Positions 1,205-9,892 of a DNA stretch of 15,602 nucleotides are shown piece after piece. The number at the start of each line of letters is the position of its first letter. Position 1 is the first letter of the stretch. Source of the DNA: Deltaproteobacteria bacterium (GTDB lineage: Bacteria > Bdellovibrionota_F > JAHFAK01); NCBI GenBank assembly GCA_023250585.1, contig JAHFAK010000048.1, positions 1-15,602 of the forward strand, given 5' to 3'. The notes beneath the pieces were generated by a model. The model made no database searches and was not told where the DNA came from. It saw nothing but the letters and a program-made list of their open reading frames with translations. The position numbers were made by a program, and so were the translations under genes.

Positions 1205-1318
1205 GCGGGAGTGAGCTATCTTCTTTTTTGATTTTTTAGCGACGTCGCTTCCATGATAATTTTAAGAACAGGAAAGCGCGATCGCTAAAAAATCAAAAAG
1301 AAGATAGCTCACTCCCGC
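1205..1318. repeat. long palindrome with conserved core, copy 1
   Basis: The left arm 1205-1242 and right arm 1282-1318 are reverse complements, apart from one extra T in the left arm (six T versus five A), giving a stem of about 37 bp. The arms start GGGAGT just inside the outer edge and end AGCGA at the core. The 39-nt core 1243-1281 begins cgtcgcttccat and ends taagaacaggaaagcgcga; cgcttcc and ggaaagcg in it can partly pair and extend the stem. The same core recurs at 7949-7987 with 35 of 39 bases identical, while the stem arms there have a different sequence. The element sits between the LamG-like gene and valS. It may act as a terminator, but it lacks a simple U-tract and the core is too conserved for that alone. 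Confidence 0.85.
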
Positions 1319-1344
1319 TCTTAACTGGAGACGTTATTCTTTGT

Positions 1345-1372
1345 TTGATTTTCCCAGAGAAGTCGCTAATAT
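1345..1372 (+). promoter_or_regulatory. candidate valS promoter
   Basis: TTGATT (1345-1350), a 16-nt spacer and TAATAT (1367-1372) resemble a sigma-70-type promoter. The -10 box ends only 9 nt before the valS ATG, so transcription from it would give a very short or leaderless mRNA. This fits the lack of a Shine-Dalgarno sequence before valS. The -35 part lies in a stretch (CTTTGTTTGA) that is also found beside the second palindrome. Confidence 0.4.
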
Positions 1373-1381
1373 GTTTTTCGC

Positions 1382-3823
1382 ATGATATTTCCAAAAAGCT
1401 ATACGACCAAAGAAATTGAAGAAAAATGGCAAAAATTTTGGGAAACGAAAAATATTTATGCCTATGACCCTACAAGTAAACGGCCTATTTTTTCTATAGA
1501 CACGCCACCTCCGTATGTTTCGTCTGCTCATCTTCATGTCGGACATGCAATGAGCTATTCACAAGCGGAATTCGTTATCAGATTCTTTCGTATGAATGGC
1601 TACAACATTTTTTATCCCATGGGATTTGATGATAATGGGCTTCCCACAGAGAGATTTGTAGAAAAAAAATACAAAATTAATAAAGGCAAAGTAAAACGCA
1701 ATGAGTTTGTGGAGTTGTGTTTAAAAGAAACAAAGATAGGCGGCGAGACCTATAAAAAACTCTGGAAATCTTTAGGACTTTCCGTTGATTGGAATTTGCT
1801 CTACTCAACGATTGATCCTCGGTGCCAGCGCTTGAGCCAACGTTCATTTATTGACCTCTATAAAAAAGGTCGAATTAGCCGTCATGATGAGCCTATGATT
1901 TGGTGTCCGCAATGTCGAACTGCGATTGCGCAAGCTGAAATTGAGACAGAAGAGAAATCAACAGAACTTCATACAATTATTTTTAAAACACTGGAAGGGA
2001 ATGAGTTAAAAATTGCTACAACAAGGCCTGAATTAATTCCTGCCTGTGTAGGGTTATTTGTGAATGAAAATGATGACCGCTACAAAGCATTAATTGGTAA
2101 AGAAGTTCAGGTCCCTCTTATGGAGCACACCGTAAAAGTATATGCTGATAGTGAAGTTGCTATGGATTATGGAACAGGGCTCATGATGGTATGTACATGG
2201 GGCGATACAGAAGATGTTCGCCGTTTCAAGGAATTTAAGCTCGATACTCGAATGATTCTTGATGAAGGTGGTCGTTTTACCGAACATGCCCCGATTTTAC
2301 ATGGATTAAAAATAGAAGAAGGACGAAAAAAAATTATTGAGCTCCTCAAAGAAAAAAATTATCTCATTGAAAGTAAAACCTTAACTCACCAAGTTGGTAC
2401 TCATGAACGATGCCAAAATGTCGTTGAATATTTAAGCACTCCGCAATGGTTTATTAAAATTCTTGATTTAAAAGAAGAATTACTTGCTCGTGGCCGAGAA
2501 CTCAATTGGTATCCCGACTATATGAAGCATCAGTATGAAGAGTGGGTGCAAAATCTTAAATGGGATTGGTGTATATCACGACAACGCTATTATGGAGTTC
2601 CTTTTCCTGTATGGTATTGTAATTCGTGTAACGAGATTATTTTGCCCGCAGATTCTGAGCTTCCTGTAGATCCAACGCTCCATAGTCCGCATACAAAAGA
2701 ATGTTCAAAATGTGGATCAAAAGAATTTCGGCCTGAAAGCGATGTTATGGATACATGGATGACATCATCGCTTACGCCTCTCATTAATTCCCATTGGGGT
2801 GATAAGGAAACAAGAATTAGGCAAATGTATCCAATGACGGTGAGAGTTCAGGCATTTGAGATAATTCGGACCTGGCTGTTTTATACGCTTGTAAAATCGC
2901 ATTTACATACGAATTCATTGCCATGGAATGATGTTATGATCAGCGGTTGGGGCCTCGATGCTCATGGAAAAAAAATGAGCAAATCAAAAGGAAATTTTGT
3001 TCCACCGGAAGAGATTATTGAAAAATACGGAGCGGATGCCCTGCGCTATTGGGCCGCGGGCGCACATCTTGGTGCTAATCTCAATTATACCGAAGAAGAA
3101 GTTAAAGAAGGACGAAAGCTTTGTTTGAAACTTTGGAATGCATCGCGTTTTATCTCAGAGCATATTGCTGAGGTGAATGAATCAATGCCAAGGACATTAC
3201 AACCTTCGGATGAATGGATTCTTTCGCGGCTTTCAACTGTTATTGAAACTGCTACAACGAGTTTTAAAAAATATGATTTTGCTCGCGCGCGTAATTCTCT
3301 TGATCGTTTCTTTTGGCTCGATCTTTGCGATAGCTATTTAGAAATTGTAAAAGCCCGCCTTTATAAGCCAGAAATCTATGGCATTCCTGCAAGCAACGCG
3401 GGAAAGTACGTATGTAAAATTATTCTTACTCATATTATAAAATTATTTGCGCCATTCTTGCCTTATATTACGGAAGAATTATTTGACGTATTTCAATTTT
3501 CTAAAGATGAAAAGGTCCACAGTATACATGTCTCATCATGGCCAAAAGTGCAGCCAGAATGGTCCAATAAAAATGCCGAAGAGCTGGGAGAATTTATTGT
3601 AGATATAGTTAAACAAGTACGAAAATATAAAACAACTGAATCTCTGGCATTAAATACAGAAATAACCGAACTTTCTATAACATGTGATCGCGTATTACAG
3701 CCTTCTATTCAAAAAGCTTTTATTGATATTCAATCAGCCACACGGTCACATTCTATTTGTTTTAGCGAGAATGCTTCTATCTTGTGTGAAAAATTTCCAG
3801 GAAAAATTGGAATTAAAATCTAA
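1382..3823 (+). CDS. valS: valyl-tRNA synthetase, compact archaeal-like type
   Basis: A class I aminoacyl-tRNA synthetase of 813 residues that charges tRNA-Val with valine in the cytoplasm. The HIGH-type motif is HVGH (52-55) within PPPYVSSAHLHVGH, and the KMSKS loop is intact at 531-535 (GKKMSKSKGN). The editing (CP1) domain lies between them and carries TTRPELIPACVG and DYGTGLMMVCTWGDTED. The latter has the cysteine-containing MVCTWGD form, and with MDTWMTSSLTPL it is typical of archaeal-like ValRS. Cysteine pairs CNSC and CSKCG at about residues 414-445 suggest a zinc-binding knuckle. At 813 residues it is shorter than usual bacterial ValRS, and the C-terminal coiled-coil tRNA-binding arm appears to be missing. 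The ATG at 1382 gives the normal family N-terminus (Y-T-KEIEEKWQKFW). No good ribosome binding site precedes it. Its stop overlaps the end of the convergent minus-strand gene by 11 bp. Confidence 0.95.
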   Translation: MIFPKSYTTKEIEEKWQKFWETKNIYAYDPTSKRPIFSIDTPPPYVSSAHLHVGHAMSYSQAEFVIRFFRMNGYNIFYPMGFDDNGLPTERFVEKKYKINKGKVKRNEFVELCLKETKIGGETYKKLWKSLGLSVDWNLLYSTIDPRCQRLSQRSFIDLYKKGRISRHDEPMIWCPQCRTAIAQAEIETEEKSTELHTIIFKTLEGNELKIATTRPELIPACVGLFVNENDDRYKALIGKEVQVPLMEHTVKVYADSEVAMDYGTGLMMVCTWGDTEDVRRFKEFKLDTRMILDEGGRFTEHAPILHGLKIEEGRKKIIELLKEKNYLIESKTLTHQVGTHERCQNVVEYLSTPQWFIKILDLKEELLARGRELNWYPDYMKHQYEEWVQNLKWDWCISRQRYYGVPFPVWYCNSCNEIILPADSELPVDPTLHSPHTKECSKCGSKEFRPESDVMDTWMTSSLTPLINSHWGDKETRIRQMYPMTVRVQAFEIIRTWLFYTLVKSHLHTNSLPWNDVMISGWGLDAHGKKMSKSKGNFVPPEEIIEKYGADALRYWAAGAHLGANLNYTEEEVKEGRKLCLKLWNASRFISEHIAEVNESMPRTLQPSDEWILSRLSTVIETATTSFKKYDFARARNSLDRFFWLDLCDSYLEIVKARLYKPEIYGIPASNAGKYVCKIILTHIIKLFAPFLPYITEELFDVFQFSKDEKVHSIHVSSWPKVQPEWSNKNAEELGEFIVDIVKQVRKYKTTESLALNTEITELSITCDRVLQPSIQKAFIDIQSATRSHSICFSENASILCEKFPGKIGIKI

Positions 3824-4448
3824 AGTAAAGTCGAAGTGCTGGCGTATACCACGTAATCATATTTTTTCCCCGAGGTTCAATAATCATAGAATAATGCAGT
3901 ACCGCTTGAATTATTACTGAAGGGGTTAGTATATAACCGATCCCTCCTTCAACGTTTGTTCCAATATCGGTATATCTATAGTGTGACTTAGATAATTGGG
4001 ATCCAGCTGCATTCTCTGTCTCAATATCACCTTTTCGTAAGTATACTCCTGGCATGAATCCAAGAAAAGGTATTACGGGAAATGTTTTATATTGAAAAAT
4101 GTATTTGAAAGCGGGGCCAACTCCAAAAATAAGAAAAGAGTTATCGGATATTATTGATTCTCCATCTGCATTAATGCTTTCGTTTTGAGAAGAATGTTTT
4201 ACATTAATATGTATTTCTGGACCAAAATGCAATCTACTTCGTTGGAACTTATGGCCGAATCCTAAGTTCAGTGCATAGCTATTGCCGGCAGTATTCCAAT
4301 CACTGCCTGTTACATGGGTATATCCACCATCAATGGTTAAGTATGAATAAGCATATTTTTTGAGATCTTTAGATTTGGTGAATCCGCTTGCTGGAAATAT
4401 AATAATTAAAATAACGAGAAGAGGTTTGAATTTTTGTATTATGTTCAT
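3813..4448 (-). CDS. small outer-membrane beta-barrel candidate
   Basis: This 211-residue protein starts with a signal peptide: basic MNIIQKFKP, a hydrophobic core of about residues 10-19, and likely cleavage after about PASG or GFTKS. The rest alternates polar and hydrophobic residues with frequent aromatic girdle residues (YLTIDGGYTH, YALNLGFGHKF, LHFGPEIHINV, FPVIPFLGFMPGVYL). It ends in LRLYFRF, and a terminal Phe is the usual BAM recognition signal of outer-membrane proteins. The size would suit an eight-stranded barrel. No enzyme motif is visible. It begins 5 nt after the papain-family lipoprotein gene on the same strand, so the two are probably co-transcribed. Its tail overlaps the end of convergent valS. 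The barrel call is from pattern; the specific family is not recognised. Confidence 0.65.
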   Translation of the reverse strand: MNIIQKFKPLLVILIIIFPASGFTKSKDLKKYAYSYLTIDGGYTHVTGSDWNTAGNSYALNLGFGHKFQRSRLHFGPEIHINVKHSSQNESINADGESIISDNSFLIFGVGPAFKYIFQYKTFPVIPFLGFMPGVYLRKGDIETENAAGSQLSKSHYRYTDIGTNVEGGIGYILTPSVIIQAVLHYSMIIEPRGKNMITWYTPALRLYFRF

Positions 4449-4453
4449 ACGAA

Positions 4454-5674
4454 TTATTCTACTTCAACAAGTGCATTGGCATCAAGAAGACTATTTTCAA
4501 TCCATGTATAGGTGAGATATGCAAGGCCATCATTTCCCCAACTTGAATCCCAGGAATTTTTAATAATGATATAACCCCCGCCTTCAACATTGGGATCATC
4601 TGCATAGCCAACGGCAAGAATGGCATGGCCACAAATAGGGCTTCCTTCGCAATTAGCTACTTCAAATACCCATGATACAGTTCCTTGTTTTTTTGTTGCA
4701 ATAGTAAAATCACTATTTGCATTAATCGAAAGTATCGTTGGGTATCCTCGATAGAGAGCTTGTTTAATTCTTCCAAGTGAAGCATACAAAGCATGTGAAG
4801 TGATTATTTTCTGTCCTTCAAAAGCATCAGCATGGGGGTCTTCAACTTTTCCATCGTCTCCTCCTCCTTGTGCTTCGGTTTCTGAACAGAAAAATCCGGG
4901 ATGATCTTTGCTATATTCTGCGCAATCTTTATTTTCTCTATTATACGGCCATGAATCTTCATCTACAAAAGGAACAGCTTGACTGATAAACTCACTAATG
5001 ACGACATCAGGAAAAAGACCTGAACTATCCCAACTGTTTTCTACTCGTTTTCCCCAATAGTATGTGTCTTGTTCCGATAAATTGGCAGAAGATTTTTTTC
5101 GTTCAATGAGAATCTCTGTCCCCGCGTTTAATGCGAATGAAACACAGGTGCCCCGTTCGCCCTGATTTTTAATTGAGGGAAGAAGTTCATCGTATGATTT
5201 AATGAGAGCAGTGGAGCCTACTCCCAAAGTAGCAGAATCAGTAACATCACAATTAGGAATTTCTGAGGGACATTCTTTTTTGTAAAGATCAATGAGCTGT
5301 ACTGTTTCTCCGCTATCAAGTGTTACCGTTCCACTTGAATCAGGAACAAGTCGAGCTATCCGTGCTCCTTTATGTTGATTGGCAATAACAATGGTAGTAA
5401 ATTCGCTTAAGTCTGCTTCATATTGAATGGAAAGTGTTTCAGTCGTATCATAAATTGGAGCATAATAACCTTTTTGAATATCTGAACTTGTCACATTGAC
5501 GGTTTCTGGATTAACATTGCTATCTTCATTGGTAGCATTATTATCATCATCCGTAGTATTTGAAGACACTTCATTACTTGTACTAGTAGAATCAGCGAAT
5601 GGCCAACAACTACTTAAAATCATTGACGATATTATTAGTATTCCGACTGTTTTTATACGCTTAAGATTTTTCAT
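4454..5674 (-). CDS. papain-family (C1A) cysteine peptidase lipoprotein
   Basis: The ATG at 5674 gives a 406-residue protein with a lipoprotein signal peptide: MKNLKRIK, a hydrophobic stretch, and lipobox LSSC with Cys23 as the lipidated residue. An in-frame TTG at 5707 would add 11 residues and weaken the signal, so I prefer 5674. Residues 26-60 are a Ser/Thr/Asn/Asp-rich linker. The catalytic domain covers about 160-406. It has Q171 (oxyanion hole) and C177 in IKNQGERGTCVSF, H350 in CGHAILAVGY, and N373 in IIKNSWDSSWG, so the papain set is complete. Cysteines 136, 142, 251, 263, 342 and 348 could form disulfides in an exported protein. It is probably an active protease tethered to the outer membrane. 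It lies 35 nt after the oxidase-like gene and 5 nt before the barrel gene. No typical inhibitor-type propeptide motif is visible in the N-terminal region. Confidence 0.85.
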   Translation of the reverse strand: MKNLKRIKTVGILIISSMILSSCWPFADSTSTSNEVSSNTTDDDNNATNEDSNVNPETVNVTSSDIQKGYYAPIYDTTETLSIQYEADLSEFTTIVIANQHKGARIARLVPDSSGTVTLDSGETVQLIDLYKKECPSEIPNCDVTDSATLGVGSTALIKSYDELLPSIKNQGERGTCVSFALNAGTEILIERKKSSANLSEQDTYYWGKRVENSWDSSGLFPDVVISEFISQAVPFVDEDSWPYNRENKDCAEYSKDHPGFFCSETEAQGGGDDGKVEDPHADAFEGQKIITSHALYASLGRIKQALYRGYPTILSINANSDFTIATKKQGTVSWVFEVANCEGSPICGHAILAVGYADDPNVEGGGYIIIKNSWDSSWGNDGLAYLTYTWIENSLLDANALVEVE

Positions 5675-5709
5675 ATAATTACAAAAGAGAAGCAAGTTTG
5701 GTGCCAAAA

Positions 5710-6381
5710 TTACTGAAATCGTGCTTGTTGTATATGTCGGATGCTTTCCTCTTTATGAAGGCGTTCATCAAGTGCAATTTGGCGAAAAAGATCTGCAAGA
5801 TTTTCAAAATCTTTATAATCATTTTTAAAGTCACTTTCAAATGGTTGGTTTTCGAGCTCAGGATGTTCTTTTACATATTCCATATATTCATGTTCCGCAT
5901 GATCTTCAAAGTCAGCATTCATCGCATAACTTAATGAGGGCTTAATTACGTAAAGTATCCAGCTGATATGAAAATATACAAAAGCCATAATTTGAGGTAA
6001 AATGCGATGCAGGAAAAGATTTTCTTTGAGCCCTTTTTCAACGGTCATTTCCTCAAGAATAAGCAAATGCCATTGCTCATTATCTTGCTGATGACGGGAT
6101 TCTGTAACAAATTCGAAAATTTTTCGGGCAAAATGTCGTTTTCGATAGGTATGAGTCATGGCAATATATGCGACATGTTCCCATGCCTGATATGGAACGC
6201 GAGCAATTACTTCGAGAACTTTAAATTTCTGGAGACTTCGCTTGTTACCATAAAAAAGGTTCATGGAGAAAAATAATATCCGAGCTAGAATACTATAACG
6301 ACGTCGTGGCAGTGCAAGTGTTTTTTCCTGTTCTTTTGGTAAATCGATTGTGTTTAATGATAGTGAAGCCCCATGTCCCAT
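5710..6381 (-). CDS. alternative-oxidase-like diiron protein
   Basis: This 223-residue protein has the diiron-carboxylate pattern of alternative oxidase, the membrane-bound quinol oxidase that reduces oxygen to water without pumping protons. Candidate ligands occur in the correct order: E57 in LEVIARVP, E102 and H105 in NEQWH, E159 in FEDHAEHEY, and E206 and H209 in DERLH. Tyr166 lies 7 residues after E159, the spacing of the catalytic tyrosine in the trypanosome enzyme (E213 to Y220, from memory). LE-x-IA-x-VP matches the family LETVAAVP. Hydrophobic stretches at about 31-45 and 122-150 suit a monotopic membrane protein. Overall similarity is divergent: FEDHAEH replaces the usual LEEEA-x-H. 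The ATG at 6381 is the only sensible start, and no clear Shine-Dalgarno sequence precedes it. It heads a minus-strand block with the peptidase and barrel genes. A related diiron hydroxylase is possible but fits less well. Confidence 0.75.
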   Translation of the reverse strand: MGHGASLSLNTIDLPKEQEKTLALPRRRYSILARILFFSMNLFYGNKRSLQKFKVLEVIARVPYQAWEHVAYIAMTHTYRKRHFARKIFEFVTESRHQQDNEQWHLLILEEMTVEKGLKENLFLHRILPQIMAFVYFHISWILYVIKPSLSYAMNADFEDHAEHEYMEYVKEHPELENQPFESDFKNDYKDFENLADLFRQIALDERLHKEESIRHIQQARFQ

Positions 6382-6387
6382 AGACTT

Positions 6388-6416
6388 TTTCTATCAAGCT
6401 GTGAGGAGACTGTCAA
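6388..6416 (-). promoter_or_regulatory. candidate promoter of the oxidase-like gene
   Basis: On the minus strand, a perfect TTGACA (6416-6411) is followed after 17 nt by TAGAAA (6393-6388), which ends 6 nt before the ATG at 6381. The -10 match is weak. If used, the transcript would be essentially leaderless. A motif AACTGAGCCA...AAGC-CT lies just upstream (6446-6426) and recurs upstream of hpnH. Confidence 0.35.
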
Positions 6417-6463
6417 TGTGATTACAGCGCTTATTGTGGCTCAGTTTTTTTAATAAAATCTAG

Positions 6464-6496
6464 GTTGTTATCATTCCGACGAAGGCCAGGATGACA
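6464..6496. repeat. degenerate inverted repeat
   Basis: In the 160-bp gap between the 88-residue gene and the oxidase-like gene, tatcattccg and ccaggatgac form an imperfect hairpin around cgaagg (about 9 of 12 positions pair). It resembles the widespread GTCATTCC...GGAATGAC small palindromes and could be a worn repeat, or a weak terminator for the hpnH pair. The rest of the gap holds no gene I can support. Confidence 0.3.
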
Positions 6497-6541
6497 ATTG
6501 AAGGGACTCTTCCAAATTGAAGTGAAGCAGGATTACGTTCT

Positions 6542-6808
6542 TTAAGTCGTCTTATCTCGTGCCTTTTTTGTTTGCCATGCTTCCCAGGATTTGCCGGCGG
6601 CTGTATCAACTCCCGTAAAACGAATATCTTTAATATGATCATAAGAAATACTCATAGGAGTTGGATTATTTGAGGCAAAGACTTCTAATGTTTTTTTTGT
6701 ATGATCACGATTAAAAATATATCCCGTGAGTGATAATCCATTGGTAAGATCTATAGTAACGTCTCCACGGTAATCAAATGCTTGATCAATAAAATTGTTA
6801 TCTAACAT
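6542..6808 (-). CDS. conserved 88-residue protein of unknown function
   Basis: A small soluble protein with no signal peptide or membrane segment. The N-terminal half (FDYRGDVTIDLTNGLSLTGY) reads as short beta strands like those of Sm-like or SH3-like barrels, and the C-terminal half carries IRFTGVDTAAGKSWEAWQ. From memory, the signature FTG-x-DTAAGKSWEAW occurs in small uncharacterised bacterial proteins, so this looks like a real conserved gene. It starts 10 nt after the hpnH stop on the same strand, which suggests one transcript. The ATG at 6808 has no convincing Shine-Dalgarno sequence. A role related to HpnH is possible from position only. I do not know a function. Confidence 0.75.
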   Translation of the reverse strand: MLDNNFIDQAFDYRGDVTIDLTNGLSLTGYIFNRDHTKKTLEVFASNNPTPMSISYDHIKDIRFTGVDTAAGKSWEAWQTKKARDKTT

Positions 6809-6818
6809 ATGTTATTTA

Positions 6819-7838
6819 TTATGCGGGTTTTAACATAAAACGTACGGTATCGAATAATCCTCGAATTGAACTGAAGGTGTCATTTACCGCACTTGGCTCA
6901 TAGCCACAGTGGACCATACAGTTGGCGCATTTTTCATGTTTGCCAGTCCCATAATTATCCCATTCCGTAGTTTCAATAAGTTCTTGAAACGTTTTTGCAT
7001 AGCCGTCTTGTAAAAGATAGCACGGTTTTTGCCAGCCAAATATATTGTACGTCGGATTTCCCCACGGCGTACATTGATACTGTTTTTTTCCTTGTAAAAA
7101 TGCTAGAAATAAAGGGCTTTGATTAAAACGCCATCTTCTTTTCGGGCTTTGTAAAATTTGTCTAAAAAGATTATGAGTTTCTTGTCGTTTGAGAAAATGT
7201 GATTGGTCAGGAGCTTTTTCATATGAATAGCCAGGAGAAAGCATCATTCCTTCTACTCCTAAATCCATCATTGTATCAAAAAATTCTCGTACTCTGTCTG
7301 GTTGTGCTCCCAAGAATAAGGTTGAATTCGTTGTGACACGAAAGCCTCGTTTGAGCGCTTCTTTAATACCATCAACTGCTTGTTCATAGACTCCATCCCG
7401 GCATACGGCTTCATCATGTTCTTCTTTTAATCCATCCATATGAATGCTGAAGGTAAGATATTTAGATGGTTTAAATAAATCAATTTTGCGCTTTAGAATA
7501 ATTGCATTGGTACAGAGGTAGACATATTTTTTTCGTGCAATAATTCCTTCGACAATTTCATGAATCGTTGGATGTAGCAGCGGCTCGCCACCTGGGATAG
7601 AAACCATGGGAGCGCCACATTCATCAACTGCATTGATGCATTGCTCTGTTGAAAGGTGTTTTTTCAAAATATGCGCTGGATATTGAATTTTTCCACATCC
7701 CGCGCAAGCTAGATTACAATGAAAGAGCGGTTCTAACATCAGAACTAGAGGATAGCGAGTATTTCGCTTAATTTTTTGTGTAATAATATAAGAGGCAACT
7801 TTTGCCATTTGTGAGATAGGAACTGCCATATACGTCAT
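6819..7838 (-). CDS. hpnH: radical SAM adenosylhopane synthase HpnH
   Basis: HpnH attaches the 5'-deoxyadenosyl group of SAM to diploptene to make adenosylhopane, the first step in building extended C35 hopanoids. The radical SAM cluster motif is C41-NLA-C45-AG-C48 in CNLACAGCGKIQYP, which is the exact family form. VSIPGGEPLLHP is the GGEP SAM-binding motif. Other near-invariant family stretches are YVYLCTNAIILK, HMDGLKEEHD, SPGYSYEKAPDQ and the cysteine-rich tail KCANCMVHCGYEPSA. Length (339 residues) is normal. The ATG at 7838 has GGAGAG 11 nt upstream. Family proteins usually begin MA[VI]P, which would correspond to the ATG at 7829; a TTG at 7865 is less likely. No squalene-hopene cyclase or other hpn gene is in the window; only the 88-residue gene follows. 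The second long palindrome lies upstream. Confidence 0.95.
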   Translation of the reverse strand: MTYMAVPISQMAKVASYIITQKIKRNTRYPLVLMLEPLFHCNLACAGCGKIQYPAHILKKHLSTEQCINAVDECGAPMVSIPGGEPLLHPTIHEIVEGIIARKKYVYLCTNAIILKRKIDLFKPSKYLTFSIHMDGLKEEHDEAVCRDGVYEQAVDGIKEALKRGFRVTTNSTLFLGAQPDRVREFFDTMMDLGVEGMMLSPGYSYEKAPDQSHFLKRQETHNLFRQILQSPKRRWRFNQSPLFLAFLQGKKQYQCTPWGNPTYNIFGWQKPCYLLQDGYAKTFQELIETTEWDNYGTGKHEKCANCMVHCGYEPSAVNDTFSSIRGLFDTVRFMLKPA

Positions 7839-7877
7839 AAAAACATTTTCTCTCCGATCCGTCAAGACGTTTGGCTC

Positions 7878-8056
7878 AGAGCTTGTAATGGCTCAGTTAA
7901 TGGGGTGAGTTAGGGAGTAGGCATGTTGCAAAAAAGTATTCCTATCGACGTCGCTTCCATAATATTATTAAGAACAGGAAAGCGCGCTCGATAGGAATAC
8001 TTTTTTGCAACATGCCTACTCCCTAATAACTGAAGCATTACCAGAGCTTTGTTTGA
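7878..8056. repeat. outer imperfect inverted repeat and flanks of palindrome copy 2
   Basis: Outside the perfect stem, 7878-7899 (AGAGCTTGTAATGG then CTCAGTTA) and 8027-8050 (TAACTGAAGCATTACC then AGAGCTTT) form a second, imperfect inverted repeat, with most of about 22 positions matching after two small gaps. The right flank, ending CTTTGTTTGA at 8056, aligns with the right flank of copy 1 (1322-1348): TAACTG-R-AG is shared, and so is the ten-base CTTTGTTTGA. The unit therefore appears larger than the stem itself. Confidence 0.55.
7910..8026. repeat. long palindrome with conserved core, copy 2
   Basis: Arms 7910-7948 and 7988-8026 are perfect reverse complements over 39 bp. The core 7949-7987 starts cgtcgcttccat and ends taagaacaggaaagcgcgc, and differs from the copy 1 core at only 4 of 39 positions. 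Apart from GGGAGT near the outer edge and TCGA or GCGA at the inner edge, the arm sequence is unrelated to that of copy 1. The element fills the gap between the OmpA-family gene (ending at 8072) and hpnH, both on the minus strand. In copy 1 the neighbouring genes are on the plus strand while the core has the same orientation, so the orientation is not tied to transcription. Confidence 0.88.
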
Positions 8057-8071
8057 GTATAGCTGCGTTTT

Positions 8072-9892
8072 TTATTTTTGTGTTTTAATAATTCTTAGTT
8101 CTACACGACGATTTTTCATTCGATCGGTTTCTGTGTCATTAAGGGCGATTGGTTGTTCTGAGCCATATCCTTTATACCTAAGTTTCTGTGCGGCGACTCC
8201 TTGAGCAATAAGATATTCTCTGACTTTTTTTGCTCGTTCATTTGATACGAGAATATTGCGTTCCTTGCTTCCCGTATTATCAGCATAACCTTCAACTTGG
8301 ATAAGTTTCATTTCTTGATGCTTTTTAAGATACTCAACAATTTTATCAAGTACTTGTAATGAATTAATTGTAATATCCATTTTTCCTGTTTCAAAATAAA
8401 TTTTTTGAGAGGTGATTATTTTATTGCCCTCTTGTTCTATTGAAATTTCCGTGTTTGATTCCTCGTTTTTTTCTTCTAAAACCTCATCTGCTTTTTTCTC
8501 TTTTTGAAGGAGTTCTTTTTTTGTGTCTTTTACTTTGGACGATGGAAGCATTTTTGGAGGAGGTTGTTTTTCGAGCAGAAATTCTTTGCTGAGAATTTTT
8601 TCTTCTTCATCAATAGAAATATCAAATTCTTTTGAAATATATCCTTGTTTTGAAATAACGATAGTTCTTTTTTTAAAAGGTAGGTCATCAAGAATAAAAC
8701 GACCATCTTTCTCTGAAAGCACTCCCTTTCTTTCTCCTTTAACTACAATGAGGCAATCTTCGATGGCTTTATCATTCCATCTATCTTTAATGACACCTCG
8801 AAGTGTAGCAGAACTTTTTTTCTCTGGATAGTGATGGACTATCAACGTTTTTGTTAATGTCCGGGACGGAGAAAAAATAAAGGACATACCAGCCAAGAAT
8901 GTAATATCAGGAACGGGGAGGACGTCTCTTCTTTTGAAAATTCCTATTTCTCCGCCAATATTTATCGCAAGTGATGAATTATCATAGGGGAAAATTTTGA
9001 TTCCTCCAGAAATTCGTTGAGGGGTATGAATAAAAGGGAATCCGGCATTGAGCGGATATTCTCCTGAATATTCACATCCTAGAATCATATTTTTAAATAG
9101 CCATTCAAGGCCTCCCGCGTATTGTAGTTGATCATAGAAAAGTGTATCCGTATAAAAAAGTTCATTCATATTAAGTGCCGTGAGATCTTCAGGTGTGCCA
9201 TCAAAGTGAAAGCCCATATTGCCATGGAACCGAAATGGTTTATTAAATCTTTGGATAAGATCAAAAGTAATTTCTCCTTTTGCCGTATAGTTAAATATTC
9301 TATCTCGAATGTTCAAGTCCCCAACGCGTGTTTTCATTTCAAGCTTTCCGGTAGTTGCAAAATAGAATGCTTTAAAAAATGAATATCCCGTTTTGCTACT
9401 CAAAGTTAAATTTCCCATTTGTTGAATAAGTTCAGCGTTGTTATCTTCAAGATTCGAAGTTGCGCTTGTTGCTACTGCAAATTCACTAAAAATAAGCGGT
9501 ACATAGGTAAGTGAGAAAATATGATCCAATCTCATAGAAGAAGTCCCATCGGAGATAAGCGATTTTTGATTCATAAATTTTGCATTATATGATCCATAAA
9601 ATCCTTGAGGATTAAGCGGGAGGATTTGTGCGGATTCGACTCGAAAGAACCCGCCATGTCCCTGAATGCCAACGCTTCTATAATCAAAAATTGGTAAGGG
9701 CTTAGGTTCAGGACATACGGGAGTTTCTTTTGTTTCGGAGGTTATATTCTCTTGTTTAGAAGGAATAGTTTCCGATACTTCTTTTTTTTCAGAAGTTTTT
9801 TCTGTATCCTTTTTGGTTTCATTAGTTTCCTGAGCAAAGCTTGCCATGGAAAGAATAAAACAAATAGATAGTAATTTCAGTATGTTACGCAT
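8072..9892 (-). CDS. OmpA-family protein with carboxypeptidase-regulatory-like domain
   Basis: A 606-residue envelope protein. A signal peptide (1-20, cleaved near ASFA-Q) is followed by a Lys/Glu/Thr-rich stretch (21-60). Residues 70-350 form a long beta-rich region with aromatic alternating strands (YVPLIFSEFAVATSA, GGIKIFPYDNSSLAINIGGEIG), likely an outer-membrane barrel. Residues of about 362-428 are a carboxypeptidase-regulatory-like beta sandwich (SATLRGVIKD, EKDGRFILDDLPF, TIVISKQGYISKEF). A charged linker (442-485) leads to an OmpA C-terminal peptidoglycan-binding domain (494-603) starting IYFETGKMDI. D538 (GYADNTG) and R553 (SNERA) have the 15-residue spacing of the diaminopimelate-binding pair, and KNRRVELRI closes it. 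It probably anchors the outer membrane to peptidoglycan. A strong GGGAGGAG precedes the ATG at 9892, with a good promoter upstream. Confidence 0.9.
   Translation of the reverse strand: MRNILKLLSICFILSMASFAQETNETKKDTEKTSEKKEVSETIPSKQENITSETKETPVCPEPKPLPIFDYRSVGIQGHGGFFRVESAQILPLNPQGFYGSYNAKFMNQKSLISDGTSSMRLDHIFSLTYVPLIFSEFAVATSATSNLEDNNAELIQQMGNLTLSSKTGYSFFKAFYFATTGKLEMKTRVGDLNIRDRIFNYTAKGEITFDLIQRFNKPFRFHGNMGFHFDGTPEDLTALNMNELFYTDTLFYDQLQYAGGLEWLFKNMILGCEYSGEYPLNAGFPFIHTPQRISGGIKIFPYDNSSLAINIGGEIGIFKRRDVLPVPDITFLAGMSFIFSPSRTLTKTLIVHHYPEKKSSATLRGVIKDRWNDKAIEDCLIVVKGERKGVLSEKDGRFILDDLPFKKRTIVISKQGYISKEFDISIDEEEKILSKEFLLEKQPPPKMLPSSKVKDTKKELLQKEKKADEVLEEKNEESNTEISIEQEGNKIITSQKIYFETGKMDITINSLQVLDKIVEYLKKHQEMKLIQVEGYADNTGSKERNILVSNERAKKVREYLIAQGVAAQKLRYKGYGSEQPIALNDTETDRMKNRRVELRIIKTQK

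Follow-up and report, generated by a model that had tools for sequence, protein, structure and literature searches.

The Hairpins of the Window

The stretch of DNA analyzed here (the window, 15,602 nt in full) belongs to a deltaproteobacterial genome of 2.24 Mb, represented by 164 contigs and 96.7% complete, and contains two long palindromes. The first is a bare hairpin, hereafter class B, which follows a gene with its stop codon near 1155 and precedes the start of valS at 1382. The second, hereafter class A, is held within a MITE. The features are as follows, the protein-coding genes being given as context only.

1205..1318, + strand: class B bare hairpin, arms 1205-1242 and 1282-1318
1243..1281, + strand: conserved core of the class B copy, loop variant CCATGATAATTTTAAGAAC
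1382..3823, + strand: valine--tRNA ligase (valS; NF009687 and TIGR00422), downstream of the class B copy
6819..7865, - strand: adenosyl-hopene transferase HpnH (TIGR03470), adjoining the class A copy
7877..7884, strand not assigned: left target duplication CAGAGCTT
7885..8041, + strand: 157-bp class A element (MITE) holding the second hairpin, ends GTAATGGCTCAGTTA / TAACTGAAGCATTAC
7885..7899, + strand: left terminal inverted repeat GTAATGGCTCAGTTA
7910..8026, + strand: class A hairpin, perfect 39-bp arms 7910-7948 and 7988-8026
7949..7987, + strand: conserved core of the class A copy, loop variant CCATAATATTATTAAGAAC
8027..8041, - strand: right terminal inverted repeat, reading TAACTGAAGCATTAC on the + strand
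8042..8049, strand not assigned: right target duplication CAGAGCTT
8072..9892, - strand: OmpA-domain protein gene, adjoining the class A copy

Both palindromes are present where a first-pass annotation of this DNA had placed them, and direct comparison confirmed that their cores (1243-1281 and 7949-7987) are identical at 35 of 39 positions. Its description of the arms as perfect or near-perfect inverted repeats was also borne out, since the 39 bp of 7910-8026 pair perfectly and the arms of 1205-1318 pair throughout apart from a T/A run that differs by 1 nt. The folding energies are -70.8 kcal/mol for 1205-1318 and -78.3 kcal/mol for 7910-8026 (z -13.7 and -16.5), and none of 200 shuffles folded as well as either hairpin. 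The palindrome at 7910-8026 is only the interior of a larger unit, the 157-bp element, with the direct repeat CAGAGCTT at both flanks. No Rfam RNA match at gathering score was obtained in the window, and no terminator-like site was seen around its class B copy. Elsewhere in the window, the translation of a minus-strand gene at 4454-5707 displays papain-like protease motifs and a lipoprotein-like start.

A Dispersed Family of About 79 Copies

Both palindromes belong to a family of about 79 hairpin repeats scattered in a single genome. A 22-nt core was found in 76 places with zero to two mismatches, and searching at exactly three mismatches added just 6 places, compared with 3 for a reversed-core control; such a copy number excludes a chance origin. 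Seventy-five of the 76 places lie inside a hairpin, and the remaining one (L171) is half a copy that lacks a matching left arm. A covariance model, scored on the best 150 candidates, so that weak copies may have been missed, added two copies with more diverged cores (L227 and L228), one on contig C24 (L226) and a gap-interrupted one on contig C44 (L229). The copy on C24 (L226:1118-1236) has a diverged loop and arms quite unlike both class consensuses, and yet they pair perfectly. Our analyses refer to 76 distinct copies: of the 75, L122 was set aside, as it does not differ from L004 across 100 nt, and L227 and L228 were included.

The first-pass annotation had itself pointed out that its reading would fail if the core had no other copies in the genome or if most copies had their arms in common. 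Neither is the case: besides the number of hairpins, 35 of 36 and 31 of 31 of the 33-bp arms are different, with only a class consensus in common. Its statement that arms differ from copy to copy is thus right in that nearly all are distinct, but they are not unrelated, a consensus being recognizable for each arm class.

We found no member of the family in the sole other genome of the phylum or in 57 wider relatives (58 genomes), nor in plasmid and phage collections. A degenerate core scan of viral contigs gave one match, without a hairpin. An exact 17-mer of the core, searched against a genome contig collection, had single matches in unrelated genomes among the matches listed, which look like chance.

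MITE-Borne and Bare Hairpins

Class A comprises 41 distinct copies, the window copy at 7910-8026 among them, in which the hairpin is the heart of a 157-bp element with ends GTAAY..CTCAGTTA. These ends begin mostly with GTAAT or GTAAC, and in 39 of the 41 copies both ends agree with the consensus at no fewer than 11 of its 15 positions. As the ends vary, they were located copy by copy for measuring the target duplications; at least 7 of the 8 duplicated bases are identical in 31 of 39 measurable copies, against 0.13% of mismatched pairings. In its ends and target duplications, class A is therefore a conventional MITE. Such elements, inserted with 8-bp duplications, would need a transposase acting in trans. 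No autonomous partner of these ends was seen in the 164-contig assembly, and in the loci read the end pattern encloses short elements only.

Some further elements were noticed alongside class A. Three collapsed class A relics (L240, L241 and L246) are about 36-43 bp long with target duplications, that of the 43-bp L240 being GTTCAAAA, and L249 is a one-armed class A copy devoid of its right arm. The relics and the one-armed copy have sequences consistent with replication slippage across a palindrome. Six loci (L244, L245, L247, L250, L252 and L256) hold MITEs with the same GTAAY..CTCAGTTA ends and another hairpin cargo, GGATCCCGTGGTCAAGCCACGGGATGACA, which resembles CGTC-type REPs. Near the IS200-type gene of contig C13 (L230), and also beside L170 and L174, both of them class A copies, the motif of the class A ends is fused to TTTCACACCTTC, which may be a further element nested within the MITE ends.

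Class B comprises 35 copies, including the one at 1205-1318 in the window. They are bare hairpins, and in 31 copies the arms stop abruptly at 36-46 bp. Their flanks are no more similar to class A ends than shuffles are (mean score 13.1 vs. 12.9); as a group, they have no target duplication, and the flanking words that copies have in common do not go beyond chance. The idea that class B consists of decayed class A elements is thus unsupported by the flank test for the group, yet the right flank of L121 is end-like. Three class assignments (L005, L175 and L028) were made by hand. According to simple ORF calls rather than curated genes, class B copies often occupy tight gaps between co-directional genes. 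Their neighbors include atpG/atpD, carA/carB, purA and queC, among which carA, queC and the hslU-like gene before purA were identified by reading translations.

Inverted arms may also arise as assembly or amplification chimeras, and the N run that breaks the copy on C44 (L229:1576-1679) suggests that these palindromes are hard to assemble. Such an origin is scarcely credible here, considering that about 79 hairpins follow one design with a common core and defined ends, that class A copies have 8-bp target duplications and that the arm ends of class B are so tightly bounded.

Arm Pairing and Covariation

Arm mismatches were counted in 67 well-measured copies, in 49 of which the arms are perfect. 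Within copies, 24 of 2583 pairs (0.9%) are mismatched, whereas between copies the mean arm identity is 0.81 in class A and 0.72 in class B, that is, a difference of 19-28%. Core identity between copies is 95% in class A and 88% in class B. In an alignment of 45 copies, 97.3% of the cells pair. Two-sided changes account for 491 cells and one-sided changes for 22, these being counts of sequences and not of independent events; 14 of the 22 one-sided cells fall at one pair beside an alignment gap. By any measure, the observed covariation was reached in none of 500 shuffles.

Covariation this strong is what one would expect of hairpins selected as RNA, for mRNA stability, RNase III processing or attenuation, with compensatory substitutions keeping the arms complementary. 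The placement of class B copies between genes of essential operons (atpG/atpD, carA/carB), where they are probably transcribed, agrees with this possibility, and the NEMIS elements are a precedent for processing by RNase III (PMC2229807). Nevertheless, RNA compensation would predict G-U intermediates and mostly transitions, and neither predominates. The remaining arm mismatches are 5 G-T and 12 A-C (p = 0.14), with no G-U bias for an RNA of the core strand, and the two-sided changes include 192 of the transversion type and 124 of the transition type. One-sided states are nearly absent, though a 38-bp stem should tolerate one mismatch, and bases have changed together in blocks of three. Moreover, the core of class B copies between co-directional genes (simple ORF calls) lies in one orientation in 11 cases and in the other in 10, and there is no T-run 3' of the hairpins; an intrinsic terminator would be marked by at least 6 T among the 8 nt that follow the hairpin, and no copy has this on either strand. 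Selection on a transcribed double-stranded RNA, one of the explanations offered by the first-pass annotation, is thus disfavored on several grounds, and we regard it as very improbable.

The three-base blocks lie at the edge of the core, which is normally asymmetric, with CGACGTCG on the left and GCGCG(C/A)TCG on the right. In L018, the left side has CGAGCGCG in place of CGACGTCG, the exact complement of its own right arm, while L132, L168(-) and L181 have on the right side GCGACGTCG, complementary to their own left arm. In each block, three neighboring bases have changed to follow the opposite arm, with cases in either direction, as judged from sequence comparison within one genome. Multi-base changes copied from arm to arm are the criterion for inverted repeats homogenized by template switching, and the blocks of these four copies read as the signature of quasipalindrome correction (PMC8604942, PMC8794818, PMC7202029). 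The data come from a single genome whose only phylum-mate is devoid of the family, so these events are unpolarised on orthologous loci. Uncorrected intermediates occur as well, as in the class A copy of L129, whose only mismatch is C-A.

Taken together, the excess of two-sided changes, the lack of G-U bias, the transversions and the copied blocks argue for homogenization of the arms at the DNA level and not for compensatory selection on RNA. The annotation had also suggested that one arm might be copied into the other by some mechanism, and it is this suggestion that the near absence of one-sided states and the blocks sustain.

Exchange and Inversion of the Core

The cores have a history separate from that of the arms, as the annotation had suspected. 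The right-core types AGGAA, GGGGT, AGACA and AGAAA are each present in both arm classes, and the two main types show no association with class (Fisher p 0.45). On an arm tree, class changes once and right-core type 16 times (shuffles, 16.7 +/- 1.4), a randomness that may partly be noise, given that the tree was built on 36 sites. Pairs of near-identical arms with different cores stand independent of the tree: L029 and L165, as well as L168 and L221, have arms one base apart and different core types. Among arm pairs within two differences, 57% have the same core type, compared with 45% overall. In class A, the core is oriented in either direction relative to the unequal MITE ends (18 vs. 17), and hairpins one base apart show opposite core orientations. 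Core types unlinked to arms, together with both orientations, therefore indicate that cores flip within copies and are swapped between copies.

The core also retains an asymmetric, mismatched tip helix, strictly intact in 62 of 76 copies. Arm-to-arm copying alone would tend to erase this asymmetry, and thus either exchange or selection must oppose it. Enzymes of the HUH type (Y1 or RAYT-type single-strand transposases) read such mismatched tips, and one of them could move class B hairpins, perhaps the core as well, the core being conserved as the site that it binds and cleaves, as REP/REPIN systems do; this reading can coexist with arm homogenization. Y1 genes do occur in the genome, one of the IS200 type and three RAYT-like (L231:1210-1863, L233:1384-2058 and L232:1450-2019), and class B is REP-like both in lacking target duplications and in its placement beside coding regions. 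However, no hairpin of the family flanks any of the Y1 genes, unlike in RAYT/REPIN systems, the scores against the NCBIfam RAYT models are under the curated cut-off, and the ends of the class B arms have neither a GTAG tag nor a conserved cleavage site. We consider the participation of such a transposase rather unlikely. A bolder version, in which the core is an exchangeable cap whose mismatched tip is recognized by a dedicated enzyme (e.g., a RAYT-like Y1) that moves it between palindromes independently of the arms, seems to us more doubtful still. If true, the family would be an inside-out REPIN, with a mobile tip and arms re-templated at each site. A likeness of the loop to the CRESS-virus origin nonanucleotide was dropped because the motif varies among copies and is AT-rich.

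Comparison with Known Repeats

The annotation knew of no named family with this design. That is only partly right, class A being a conventional MITE by its ends and duplications and class B being REP/REPIN-like in size, placement and lack of duplication. The nearest analogue is the REPIN, an inverted REP doublet associated with RAYT transposases, in whose hairpins compensatory changes on both sides are reported as common (PMC3116915). The family described here has likewise short, dispersed, intergenic and non-coding hairpins in many copies, with two-sided compensatory changes. REPINs conserve their outer ends and vary inside, whereas in this family it is the tip that is conserved, on arms that drift. 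In addition, we found no GTAG tag and no adjacent RAYT, and the arms are much longer and often perfect (37-41 bp).

CGTC-tagged REPs and the Rickettsia RPEs (PMC3733652) are likewise palindromes found in many intergenic copies, no dedicated transposase is known for them, and the core of the present family contains CGTC. The CGTC REPs have stems of 8-9 bp, loops of 4-5 nt and the tag at one end, while the present hairpins, with CGTC in their interior, measure about 38 bp and have a loop of about 18 nt.

The terminal repeats of IS66 start with GTAAGCG, and its insertions have 8-bp duplications (PMC11946415). Class A is similar to IS66-ended MITEs in its length of about 157 bp, its inverted ends starting with GTAA and its 8-bp target duplications. 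Derivation from IS66 is not supported, since the ends continue with T or C in place of GCG and the agreement is limited to GTAA and the duplication length; the interior is a hairpin of about 117 nt, and the genome has no IS66 transposase, an IS66-type DDE domain being absent from it.

Arm homogenization and spacer inversion by template switching have been documented elsewhere (PMC8794818, PMC8604942, PMC7202029). The present hairpins share with those cases the homogenization of arms in multi-base blocks and the inversion of a spacer between perfect inverted repeats. Those studies dealt with single inverted repeats or RNA genes; here, the process involves a dispersed family and is accompanied by exchange of cores between copies.

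Probable Concerted Evolution along Two Axes

Our data are most likely explained by a MITE/REP-like family subject to concerted evolution along two axes, the arms within each copy and the core between copies. We consider it probable that the repeats are non-autonomous and evolve at the DNA level, with arms re-templated within the copy and cores exchanged between copies and flipped. One arm would repeatedly serve as the template for the other, by template switching (quasipalindrome correction) at stalled or folded replication intermediates, and the arms would in this way stay complementary, faster than point mutations build up. We infer that template switching at replication does the copying rather than recombination repair, the sequences alone fitting both, and that the core is moved by conversion between copies rather than by a dedicated enzyme. 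If the core and one arm were converted ectopically and the arms then corrected against each other, the result would be a new core on unchanged, perfect arms. Exchange between copies and flips within them would be the main cause of the similarity among cores, which under such exchange needs no selection, and selection for an enzyme-binding site may act as well. The bare hairpins of class B would have settled mostly in short intergenic gaps.

The ingredients of this process are known, and it is the layout, a conserved tip on drifting arms, that is the reverse of REPINs. To our knowledge, limited to openly available papers, core exchange separate from arm homogenization has not been described for a bacterial repeat family.

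When the two arms of a hairpin covary, this is usually taken to prove that RNA structure is under selection. In the family described here, very strong covariation across about 79 natural copies looks like a by-product of DNA copying from arm to arm. If arm mutations are resolved either way equally, the ratio of between-copy divergence to within-copy mismatch suggests that correction outpaces mutation roughly 20- to 30-fold. The family thus calls for caution in the inference of RNA structure and provides material for a quantitative model of arm homogenization.
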